From Treponema brennaborense (GTDB taxonomy: Bacteria > Spirochaetota > Spirochaetia > Treponematales > Treponemataceae), in NCBI GenBank assembly GCA_023666275.1, contig JAMPCJ010000003.1, positions 186,001 through 250,000 on the forward strand: a DNA stretch of 64,000 bases. Reading direction: 5' to 3'. This document shows positions 7,841-12,742 of the stretch, in pieces (within the stretch, counting starts at the first letter, position 1; the number at the start of each line of letters is the position of its first letter). Under the pieces are notes generated by a model. That model had not been told where the DNA came from. It searched no databases and saw only the letters and a program-made list of their open reading frames with translations. Both the position numbers and the translations under genes were made by a program.

Positions 7841-8192
7841 TTGTTTCCTTCCTCAAGTCTTATCCTAGCATACTTTGGTTGAATTTTCCACAGCCGCGAT
7901 TTCTTCCGCCGTCGCGCGGATTGCTTCGCCTGCTTTCGGCGGACAACCGTCGTGCCCTTGGTACCTTTTGCCTTGTGCATCGGCATTTGTACGGCAGAAT
8001 AATCCGTATAACGGCAAATAACGCCGAACAATGCCAAAATAATGAACAGTGCTTGCGGTAATCCGCGAATGCCGTTATACTGTACACGGGCGGCGCTTTA
8101 CGGAAAAAACGCCGCACAGATTAAGGAAAGAAAACCCGCCTTGCAGGCAGAAATGGGCTTTCTTCCGATAAATAAATTTTTCAGGAGGCATT
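7841..8192. other. Non-coding stretch before the poly-G lipoprotein
   Basis: The stretch contains a weak dispersed-repeat relic (about 7896-7935, CGCGCGGATTGCTTCGCC), the promoter listed at 8053, and a CAGGAGG ribosome site at 8182-8188. No coding similarity was recognised on either strand. Confidence 0.5.
8053..8081 (+). promoter_or_regulatory. Probable promoter of poly-G lipoprotein
   Basis: TTGCGG (8053-8058), a 17-bp spacer and TATACT (8076-8081) lie about 110 bp upstream of the ATG at 8193. Confidence 0.5.
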
Positions 8193-9291
8193 ATGAAAAA
8201 AACGATGCAAAAACTCTCGACAGTACTTGCCGCCGCATGGCTTGTCGTGGGGGGGGGTATTCTTAACCTCATGCAGTGACGATCCGGAAGAAGAAAAAAA
8301 GGAAAACAATTATGAGGGCACAGTCTATGAGGATTTTGCCGACTATCCGAGCGGAAAAGAAAATGCGCGCGGAATGTTAACGGTAAAAAGCAATTTGGCT
8401 CAAGAATCTGTGCTTTTGTTCGACGGAGAAGTAAAGCCGGAAAAGTACATCGGTACAATTCCCGCAGGAGCAGGAAGCTCCGTTAAATTAAAACTTGATT
8501 CCGGAAAATTCCACACAATTGTCGGTGTTTGCAAATCCGTCTATGAAGAAAAAGGCGACCAGGCGGCGCAGACTTCGGCTCTCACCTATTATTCCGATAC
8601 ACAAGCATACAGCATAACCGTTTCGCCCGATAACCTTACCGGCGCGGGAACCTGGATTTTCAACAACAATACAAACTATTGGGCACAAATTGAGGACGTT
8701 GACAACAGCGGAAAGACATTTGCCGTTATCCAACCGAACGCATTGCGCGTGAAAATTCCGATCCAGCTGAATACGGCGTATGATTACAAAGTAACATACA
8801 AAAAAGAACTGAAGTACAATGATACAATTGTGGCGATTGTCGATTCTTCGGTAGTGTCAGAGAACGACACTGTTCAGCTTTCTGAAGCCACATCATTGAC
8901 ATTCACTACAGACCTAAACGGTCCAAAGCAGGGTTCACTTTCCGCTGATTTAGCACCGAGCGTGCTTTTCATAAACAACTCAGGAAGAAGTGTGCGCATT
9001 TATAATGGGCAGACACAGCTTTCAAACATCAACAACACAGCGGCAGACGATTTTGTGGTTCTTACAGGAACAAGTGCGATGCTCGCTGGCTTCGATGATA
9101 ATTTTAATACGCAGACATTGGTCGCCCGTTCAACTGCATGGACTGGTGGACAGACTTGCACAGTAGACATGTCTATGAAAAAGGGCAAAGTGTACTGCGT
9201 AACGATCACCGCAAATAATGATGAAAACGCGACTTCTCCCATAAGATGGACAGTCGAAGAAAAAGACGCTTCCGAATATTACGACGAATAA
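8193..9291 (+). CDS. Lipoprotein, out of frame at a nine-G run (candidate phase-variable gene)
   Basis: A strong CAGGAGG site precedes ATG 8193, which starts MKKTMQKLSTVLAAAWLVV, a lipoprotein signal peptide. The frame then enters nine consecutive G (8249-8257) and stops at 8278. If the run had eight G, translation would continue as GGVFLTSCSDD..., giving a perfect lipobox (LTSC, Cys 27) and a 365-residue lipoprotein ending at 9291. The mature part has no recognised domain. It looks like two or three beta-rich modules with many Asn, Thr and Ser, as in surface proteins. Its segment layout resembles the N-terminal part of the next gene (9719). This copy is predicted OFF; slippage would switch it ON. 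A sequencing error in the run is the alternative. Confidence 0.8.
8249..8257 (+). repeat. Homopolymer of nine G inside signal-peptide codons
   Basis: This is the only G or C run of this length noticed in the window. It lies 56-64 nt into the gene, between the hydrophobic core and the lipobox. Confidence 0.95.
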
Positions 9292-9718: not shown

Positions 9719-12700
9719 ATGAAAAAATTGTTTGCCAAAGTGTTTTTTGTTTTTGCGGCTGTTTGGTTCGCCGCGTTCGTCTGCTTTTCGTGCAAAAGCG
9801 GCGGCGACGATGACGACGATTACATTGAAGCGCCCAACGCCCCCGACGACAGCGGCACGGAACGCACGGCGAAAATCTCCGTGCAGTCGAACACGCAGTA
9901 CGAAATCCGCATTTACCGCGACAGCGAACGGCAGAATCTTGCGGCGCGGATTCCCGCATACGAAAGCGCGGTTTTCGAAGCAGAAAAAATCGGGGAAGCA
10001 ATTTTTTATTACACATTTTCGATTCCGCTCGGCGAAGATTCTGCCGCGGCAATTCCCTATTACGACAACTCCTGTGCGTTTGTGCTCGCTGTTTCCGCAG
10101 ACAAAGAGGCAAAGCAGACGATTTCATTTCCCAAAAGCATCGCGCTTTCTTCGTGCTTTGTCGTTTTGCGGAATGCGGGCGAAAAGTCAATCCAGTTTAT
10201 GAGCGGAAATTCCGTCATAAAACCGTACACGGCAGACGGCACGGCAAGCACAATTATAAACCCGAAAGCATCCGCGTGCTACGAAATAAAAAAAACAGAC
10301 TTCGCCAATTTGAGTTCGTATGCCGTGCGCGAAGTGCTCGGAACTTCCGCTTCCGCTTTGCCGCTCTCAAAAATAATCGGCGCGTTCGAAGAATGCAAAA
10401 TCTACACGGTCGTTTTCGACGGAAATTCGATTCGGCTTGAAAAGACAATCGGGCAGGAAGATTTAGTCGGCATGAAAGCGTACACCGTGGCGCACCTACG
10501 CGAGCCGCTTTCGGCGGAAGAAGTTTACGAAACCGCGGAGAGCGAAACGCTGTACGGCTTCCCCGAAGAAATGACTGCCGCCGCGCCGAAGCAGTACGAA
10601 GGTTTTGAAGCGGAAACTTTCGCGCAGCAGAAAATCGCGGACGACGGCTCGACGCAAATCTACATCTTGTACAAGCGAATCCGCACCGCGCTGACATTCA
10701 ACGCAAACGGCGGAACATTCGGCGGCGATAGCGGCGGCTCGGTAACGCTCACGGGAAAATACGGCGCGGCAGTGGAAGCGCCGACAAACCCCTCGCGGGA
10801 CGACCACAGATTTCTCGGCTATGATGCGGAAGTGCCGAAAACGTTCGGCACGGAAGACAAGACGTTTACTGCGCAGTGGGAATTTTCGATAACAAAAGAG
10901 GCAAATGCCGACACGGTGTACGACACGATAAAATCCTGCAATAATCCCGAACACACATACACGATAAAATTGAAAGGCTATATAACCGAGTCGACGCTGG
11001 GAAAAGTGGCACAGGCGCTGTACGAAAAATCGTCCGTGAGCTTTATTCTCGACATGTCCGAAGCCCGCGGCATTTCCGAACTGCCGCCGTACAGTTTCAA
11101 TTACAAGACTTCATCCGGCTGTCAGCCTTGCACGAACTTGCTTGAAGTCGTACTGAACAGCGAGATTCAGACGCTTGGGGAAAACGCGTTTTATAAATGC
11201 ACGCGGCTCAAGAGCATAGAGATTCCCGCAAGCGTTGCGGCAGTCGGTGCAAATGCGTTTGAGAACTGCACGAGCCTGGAACGCATCGCAATTCCTGCGG
11301 GCGTGAAAACAATCGGAAGCAATGCATTCAAAGGCTGTACGAGCCTTGCAGTCGTGATTGTTTCGGCAGGAGAACCGCCTTCGCTCGGCGCGAATGCTTT
11401 TGACAACAATGCGGGCGGACGCAAAATATATGTTCCGAGCGCAAGCATAGAAACATACAGAAACGCCGACGGCTGGAAAACCTATGCCGCCGCCATTGCG
11501 GGCGACTGCGCCATAGGAGCCGCGCACGCTTACAACGATGTATGGAAAAACGATGCGGCAAGCCACTGGAAAGAATGCATTGCCTGCGGAACGGCGGAAT
11601 ATCAAAGCGCGCACGGCTGGAATGCAGGCGAAGCAACGAAAGCGCCGACCTGCACTGCGGAGGGCGTAAGGACATACACGTGCACAACCTGCGGCGCGGC
11701 GAAAACCGAAGCTATAGCGGCAAACGGGCATAGTTGGGACGAGGGTGAAGTGACGAAAGCGGCAACTTGCGCGGCAGAGGGCGTAAGGACATATACGTGC
11801 ACAACCTGCGGTACGGCAAAAACCGAAGCAGTCGCGGTAACGCAACACGTTTTCTACACATGGTGGAATGCCGACGAGAGCAATCACTGGAAGATATGTA
11901 CTGGTTGCAGAGCAACGGGACACCAAGCTGCGCATACTTGGGATACAGGTAGAGTGACAAAGACGGCGACGTGCAGCGCAACGGGTGTAAAGACATATAC
12001 TTGTACAATTTGCAACAGGACAAAAACCGAAACAATTGCGGCAAAAGAGCACAGTTACGGCGAATGGAAAGCTGACGCGAATAATCACTGGAAAATATGC
12101 GCTGTATGCAAAGGAAAGAATACTGCTGTACACATAAACACAGTCTGTTTGAGTCAAACAGGTGAGCGTGAAGAAAAATGTTCAGCCTGCGGTTTTGTTT
12201 CATCAACAAATGCCTGGACGGCAGAAACGCTTTCCGAACTTTCCGATGCTTTGAAAAACTACGCAGAAACGGAAGCCAATATAAAGGTTGCGGGTGCGAT
12301 TACAAACGGTGATATTGCGACAATAAGGACTGCGTTGTATGCGAACTTATCGAAACACGTCGTGCTGGATTTGGGCGAAACAACGGGACTGACAGAAATC
12401 GATGTTCGTGCATTCTATAATTACAGAATGCTTACAAGTCTTGTTGGCATAACGATTCCGGACAGTGTAACATCTATAGGAGACGATGCTTTCTATAATT
12501 GCACGAGGCTCAAAAGCGTAAATATTCCTGTCAGTGTAACATCTATAGGTCAGTGTGCATTCAGTACCAACAGTGGAGAACTTACTATAAACTATGCGGG
12601 CACAAAAGAGTTGTGGAGGAATATATCAATAGTTCGTGGAACCGATTATTACGATACTTTCCATAATCTTTCTCACGGGAAGGTGATATGTATTGATGGT

Positions 12701-12742
12701 TCTTTCAGTATAGGTATGTTTGACACAGTTTTAAGCGATTAA
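9719..12742 (+). CDS. Large modular surface lipoprotein (InlB-type repeat, CxxC repeats, BspA-like LRRs)
   Basis: The ATG at 9719 starts a 1007-residue protein with a lipoprotein signal (VCFSC, Cys 25) followed by an acidic Gly/Asp linker. An upstream in-frame start would add 25 residues read from repeat DNA and bury the signal peptide. By position: residues ~50-320 are an unrecognised beta-rich part; ~322-392 an InlB-B-type repeat (LTFNANGG...FLGY...FTAQW); ~474-577 BspA-like leucine-rich repeats (GENAFYKCTRLKSIEIPASV). Residues ~602-827 hold repeats of H-x-W...C-x-x-C type (HWKECIACG, TYTCTTCG repeated), which look like small metal-binding ribbons. Residues ~880-960 are a second LRR block (IPDSVTSIGDDAFYNCTRL). 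Likely surface-exposed and involved in adhesion. Confidence 0.8.
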   Translation: MKKLFAKVFFVFAAVWFAAFVCFSCKSGGDDDDDYIEAPNAPDDSGTERTAKISVQSNTQYEIRIYRDSERQNLAARIPAYESAVFEAEKIGEAIFYYTFSIPLGEDSAAAIPYYDNSCAFVLAVSADKEAKQTISFPKSIALSSCFVVLRNAGEKSIQFMSGNSVIKPYTADGTASTIINPKASACYEIKKTDFANLSSYAVREVLGTSASALPLSKIIGAFEECKIYTVVFDGNSIRLEKTIGQEDLVGMKAYTVAHLREPLSAEEVYETAESETLYGFPEEMTAAAPKQYEGFEAETFAQQKIADDGSTQIYILYKRIRTALTFNANGGTFGGDSGGSVTLTGKYGAAVEAPTNPSRDDHRFLGYDAEVPKTFGTEDKTFTAQWEFSITKEANADTVYDTIKSCNNPEHTYTIKLKGYITESTLGKVAQALYEKSSVSFILDMSEARGISELPPYSFNYKTSSGCQPCTNLLEVVLNSEIQTLGENAFYKCTRLKSIEIPASVAAVGANAFENCTSLERIAIPAGVKTIGSNAFKGCTSLAVVIVSAGEPPSLGANAFDNNAGGRKIYVPSASIETYRNADGWKTYAAAIAGDCAIGAAHAYNDVWKNDAASHWKECIACGTAEYQSAHGWNAGEATKAPTCTAEGVRTYTCTTCGAAKTEAIAANGHSWDEGEVTKAATCAAEGVRTYTCTTCGTAKTEAVAVTQHVFYTWWNADESNHWKICTGCRATGHQAAHTWDTGRVTKTATCSATGVKTYTCTICNRTKTETIAAKEHSYGEWKADANNHWKICAVCKGKNTAVHINTVCLSQTGEREEKCSACGFVSSTNAWTAETLSELSDALKNYAETEANIKVAGAITNGDIATIRTALYANLSKHVVLDLGETTGLTEIDVRAFYNYRMLTSLVGITIPDSVTSIGDDAFYNCTRLKSVNIPVSVTSIGQCAFSTNSGELTINYAGTKELWRNISIVRGTDYYDTFHNLSHGKVICIDGSFSIGMFDTVLSD

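Follow-up and report, generated by a model that had tools for sequence, protein, structure and literature searches.

A nine-G tract in the signal peptide of a treponeme lipoprotein gene predicts translational phase variation through a dispersed 5' cassette

The gene at 8193-9291 of the window (the whole 64,000-nucleotide stretch analysed here) presents a contradiction: a complete lipoprotein start and a long open body lie on either side of a run of nine G, but in different reading frames. Is this gene misassembled, decaying, rescued during expression, or is it switched by changes in the length of the run? The evidence collected below argues strongly that it is, very probably, a translationally phase-variable lipoprotein gene, set by slipped-strand changes in the poly-G tract and assembled in its OFF state.

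A lipoprotein gene divided between two frames

The earlier note on this DNA had placed the start at ATG 8193, behind a strong ribosome site and with a signal peptide, and the AGGAGG element at 8183-8188 and the frame were both confirmed, as were the length and coordinates of the nine-G run (8249-8257) that was said to break this frame. Read from ATG 8193, the frame is MKKTMQKLSTVLAAAWLVVGGGILNLMQ and ends at a stop (8277-8279) after 28 codons, in agreement with the OFF state previously assigned to the assembled sequence. The second frame exits the G run as VFLTSCSDDPEEE... and remains open for 344 codons, from 8257 to 9288, followed by a stop at 9289-9291; the arithmetic by which one G fewer would give LTSC and a 365-residue lipoprotein in the other frame is correct. 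The run occupies codons 19-22 of the ORF and the frames from 8193 and from 8257 differ, which makes it an early frame-setting repeat. The lipoprotein signature (charged start, hydrophobic stretch and LTSC) is split over two frames as assembled, with intact gene parts on both flanks: a ribosome site and signal peptide 5', and 344 open codons, conserved in relatives, 3'. The run sits inside the ORF and does not belong to the promoter-spacer tracts of this genome; a search of 7900-8260 found no promoter of the sigma-70 type.

Table 1. Features of the locus in window coordinates, and copies of the 5' cassette elsewhere in the genome (contig:position)
Feature	Position	Strand	Evidence or state
5' switch cassette (predicted): palindromic leader, ribosome site, signal peptide, poly-G, lipobox, short linker	8124..8296	+	DNA identity to other copies
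Palindromic leader element, dispersed repeat	8125..8166	+	about 13 places in the genome; predicted stem
AGGAGG ribosome-binding site	8183..8188	+	sequence
OFF-frame reading: start of the signal peptide, truncated at a stop after 28 codons	8193..8279	+	frame from ATG 8193 and cassette comparison
Nine-G putative switch tract	8249..8257	+	sequence and run-length scans
Lipobox, LTSC codons	8263..8274	+	frame leaving the run; motif also in paralogous cassettes
Predicted lipoprotein body, other frame, 344 codons and stop	8257..9291	+	open frame, orthologues, coding constraint
Second lipoprotein, BspA-type leucine-rich repeats	9719..12742	+	LRR_5; adjacency in all relatives
Cassette, window copy	8124..8296	+	9 G, OFF, complete
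Cassette copy	C16:108120		8 G, in frame (ON), complete
Cassette copy	C16:109908		9 G, OFF, complete
Cassette copy	C2:89078		8 G, OFF, complete
Cassette copy	C17:106086		9 G, OFF, complete
Cassette copy	C8:25		10 G, begins at contig end; looks in frame
Cassette copy	C18:1		9 G, begins at contig end; looks out of frame
Cassette copy	C4:39530		9 G, stops at contig end
Cassette copy	C8:3727		9 G, stops at contig end

The dinucleotide composition of the window predicts about 8 G or C runs of at least six and 0.07 of at least nine, whereas the nine-G run is the sole one of at least six. Across the host genome (18 contigs, 2.35 Mb), runs of length 6, 7, 8, 9, 10 and 11 were counted 19, 4, 26, 35, 8 and 2 times, respectively, with 71 runs of 8-11. 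Against genome expectations scaled from the window composition, runs of at least nine were far too many (45 observed vs about 2.6 expected) and runs of 6-7 far too few (23 vs about 275). The resulting distribution is two-peaked, with a strong deficit of short runs and a strong excess of long ones, the outcome to be anticipated were long G runs kept only where useful. Since the window is otherwise free of runs of at least six and the genome is rich in runs of 8-11 and poor in runs of 6-7, the nine-G run in the lipoprotein gene is not a product of chance. The genome has an intact mutS, and slippage is therefore not boosted through loss of this repair gene. Runs of at least eight are common across the family but very unevenly spread; run counts for cultivated treponemes have been published (PMC8049484).

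No relative of the 344-residue body was found in Pfam or PDB, and its predicted structure (mean pLDDT 40) was too poor to use. The relatives searched came from other genera of the family and order, none from the same genus, and orthologues of the body were found in six genomes or species of another genus of the family, with 36-53% identity and a coding-type divergence (non-synonymous 0.44-0.67, synonymous saturated). Given these orthologues and this divergence, the downstream frame is a real gene. Those relatives that carry a name are metagenome assemblies labelled Treponema or Spirochaetia, one of them from sheep rumen. In all six orthologue genomes the body gene adjoins a relative of the lipoprotein at 9719-12742, and this conserved neighbour implies that the loci correspond. 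All five readable orthologue starts are ordinary signal peptides without poly-G; the start of L077 is truncated. In one orthologue (L150, G133 C67:2246-3222) the body is split over two frames mid-gene, with no long G run there.

The earlier note had counted a homopolymer-free sequence in the orthologues of related strains against a switch, and the orthologues indeed have no homopolymer at this place; they belong, however, to other species and have different signal peptides, which points to a gain of the switch in the window genome rather than to its absence. Because the orthologues share the neighbour yet have plain signal peptides, the switch was probably acquired in the lineage of the window genome. 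The simplest account would be that the cassette described below took the place of a plain 5' end in that lineage, a direction that we infer.

A 5' cassette shared with other lipoprotein genes

A search of the genome with window 8060-8300 recovered a unit of about 170 bp, in which the longer matches start at window 8124 and end a few codons beyond the lipobox cysteine, at about 8296. Genome copies holding most of the cassette are 73-79% identical in DNA to the window cassette. Five cassettes are complete and contig ends cut cassettes at four further places, so that the cassette loci number seven to nine, window included, as some contig-end halves may share one gene. The contigs C2, C4, C8 (at both ends) and C18 break inside or beside cassettes, which suggests unresolved copies of LRR lipoprotein genes.

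One of the five complete cassettes is in frame (ON) and four are OFF (Table 1). The in-frame copy, C16:108120, reads MKKCKKLSAVLAALLLTSWGGIVFTSCSNEPEE, with signal peptide and lipobox cysteine all in one frame, and is an internal demonstration that both halves encode one lipoprotein start. Despite the drift to 73-79% identity, a G run of 8, 9 or 10 is held at the same place in homologous cassettes. The distance from the run to TCATGC varies among them (11, 12 or 13 bases), as does the frame offset (remainder 0, 1 or 2); the in-frame G length is therefore specific to each copy, and the genes would switch independently. LRR_5 was found in all five other cassette bodies tested, which are BspA-like LRR proteins, and was absent from the window body, which is unrelated to these.

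The palindrome of about 46 bp that leads the cassette (GGAGGAAAGAAAACC..GGTTGTCTTTCCTCC) occurs at window 8125-8166 and at about 12 other places (L126-L143), often directly 5' of genes, with or without a poly-G signal peptide. A role as regulatory RNA was considered and rejected: the fold of the window copy was not clearly better than that of shuffled sequences (z -0.9) and covariation was weak. The palindrome is a dispersed repeat that also occurs where there is no switch. An Rfam search gave one sub-threshold match only, on the other strand. A second repeated element, with the common sequence gagatactgctatatttgccgcgtgagaacagcag... closed by a run of ten G in each case, is present at C17:30064 (L041) and C16:110323 (L040).

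Tracts elsewhere in the genome and in the family

Gene context was read in the genome stretches around the tracts only; codon-score frame calling at the tracts separated the frames poorly, and open-frame analysis was used instead. Many runs were located in, or directly 5' of, genes for exported or surface-modifying proteins. Tract genes were mainly of this kind, including BspA-like LRR lipoproteins, four pectate lyases, a GH5 cellulase and a CotH protein, and further members encode glycan enzymes, an outer-membrane barrel, a glycerophosphotransferase, an IspD-like cytidylyltransferase, an acyltransferase, a sulfatase and a chemotaxis receptor. The window gene looks like one member of a large set of putatively phase-variable genes. 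The IspD-like cytidylyltransferase (C13:110942, L066), the chemotaxis receptor (C11:211343, L023) and the acyltransferase (C18:66009, L047) genes each have a G8/G9 run at which the frame appears broken.

Six nine-long poly-C runs are placed as spacers separating a -35 from a -10 element: those at C1:53436, C1:75458, C1:77468, C10:98090 and C13:75103 match with two mismatches or fewer, and the one at C2:16154 with three. Counted over all tract sites, six matches with two mismatches or fewer were obtained where 0.43 would be expected; five are the poly-C spacers just named, and the remaining one, C11:269495, sits within a lipoprotein signal peptide. The promoter-spacer poly-C tracts (L010, L011, L016, L030 and L012) give a spacing of 14-16, for example 5' of the outer-membrane-barrel and CotH genes, and are candidates for promoter-type phase variation in the same genome as the signal-peptide switch. 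Runs at the position of a would-be ribosome site were seen by eye at C2:70258, C10:267332 and C14:44381, among others.

The family was scanned for a pattern in which a start codon, a run of G8 and a codon for cysteine are spaced as in a signal peptide. This pattern was present in 79 of 274 family genomes, compared with about 20 for a reversed control that was counted by hand. Twenty poly-G signal peptides from other species, picked by pattern and not by frame, were read in detail and comprised nine ON and 11 OFF. Two similar signal peptides in G181, one on a near-threshold Lcl_C protein and the other on an FGE-sulfatase protein, repeat the theme of the same front on a different body. A lipoprotein family with the motif C[EQK]NFLNG..IK..IE in other treponemes repeatedly has poly-G in the signal peptide (L168, L169, L177, L196, L197, L201 and L202), and in several of its members the poly-G comes after a common ACTATACTTTTG motif.

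Interpretation and comparison with known systems

Phase variation through the G run in the signal peptide, as the earlier note had proposed, is the best fit to this locus, because the run lengths are two-peaked, tracts are kept in paralogous cassettes of mixed ON and OFF state, and the same architecture is found in many related species. An assembly or sequencing error, by which the true run would be in frame and the gene simply ON without any switching, is improbable. Homopolymers this long are error-prone and several contigs end inside cassettes, but such errors predict that most tract genes are in frame, whereas only one of the four other complete cassettes is in frame, and 11 of the 20 analogous genes in other species, which come from independent assemblies, are out of frame; moreover, an error of one base would still leave G8-G10 in the signal peptide, itself a likely switch.

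Decay following a frameshift in the G run that inactivated the gene would account for a frame broken as assembled and for orthologues without the homopolymer. It is very improbable, because beyond the break 344 codons remain open and diverge in the manner of coding sequence, neither the ribosome site nor the signal peptide is damaged, and paralogous cassettes, of which one is in frame, retain the same run. Slippage can be favoured by long homopolymers, and RNA polymerase or ribosomes slipping on the G run might yield some full protein from the nine-G template with the DNA unchanged. Such programmed slippage would explain why the run is retained though most complete cassettes are out of frame, but one fixed event misfits frame offsets that differ among cassettes (remainder 0, 1 or 2), and other runs of the genome lie in promoter spacers, where length matters and slippage has no role; we give it as little credence as decay.

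The usual mechanism of phase variation at such loci is slipped-strand mispairing. Here, mispairing while the G run is replicated would alter the length of the run, and each change would bring the signal-peptide codons into the frame of the lipobox and mature protein or take them out of it. With nine G, as assembled, translation would stop after 28 codons and no lipoprotein would be made. Each cassette-bearing gene would switch on its own, and cells could show different combinations of lipoproteins. On this proposal the run length would change in the living population, the lipoprotein would be exposed at the surface, and the cassette would have been gained through recombination in this lineage. 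The slipped-strand mechanism is discussed in PMC7864442.

A broader proposal, to which we give somewhat less than an even chance, is that treponemes of this family use a portable poly-G signal-peptide cassette that recombines onto unrelated lipoprotein bodies, so that fixed surface proteins switch independently. If true, gut and rumen species would assemble combinatorial surfaces through a portable cassette. Most of what is known about phase variation in treponemes comes from T. pallidum, an organism that is very difficult to manipulate; a relative with 71 long G/C runs and a shared cassette would offer a further setting in which to study how spirochaetes vary their surface. Its tracts fall into several placement classes (signal peptide, promoter spacer and, apparently, ribosome site), and the pectate lyases and cellulase among the tract genes suggest hedging of nutrition or biofilm traits and not only of antigens.

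Poly-G tracts had been described beforehand as known switches in pathogenic treponemes, a precedent that holds in part. Poly-G runs are present in a treponeme at tprE/G/J, tprL, tp0126 and TP0127 of T. pallidum, including 7-11 G within isolates at tprL (PMC7864442) and a tract in the ORF of TP0127 (PMC5015957). The best-studied of these tracts, however, act in promoters and form a different class, whereas the window tract would act in translation, and the host is not one of the syphilis treponemes. The promoter-spacer tracts found at other sites of the host genome do belong to that promoter class.

In Neisseria opa, the repeat is located in the leader peptide. The present genes resemble opa, for which CTTCT repeats have been tabulated (PMC5320596), in being multi-copy surface-protein genes with a coding repeat of their own and a frame that would be set independently. 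They differ from the pentanucleotide repeat and homologous bodies of opa in having poly-G in a lipoprotein signal peptide and unrelated bodies. HpuA of Neisseria is a lipoprotein and hpuA, like the window gene, has a coding poly-G tract. This tract, (G)8-10, varies between strains (PMC5320596); unlike the window cassette, hpuA is a single locus with no dispersed cassette, and the likeness is one of description, with no homology claimed.

The Mycoplasma Vlp-type families have conserved 5' ends and switch via promoter tracts or DNA rearrangement, unlike the window gene with its frame-setting poly-G in the signal peptide. They are alike in that several phase-variable lipoproteins give combinatorial surfaces (PMC11868660), as they would here. 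The limited set of literature searched contained no account of a dispersed cassette in treponemes that has poly-G in the signal peptide. What is already known is the kind of switch, from hpuA, opa and TP0127 (PMC5320596, PMC5015957); what is new is the dispersed cassette common to unrelated proteins.
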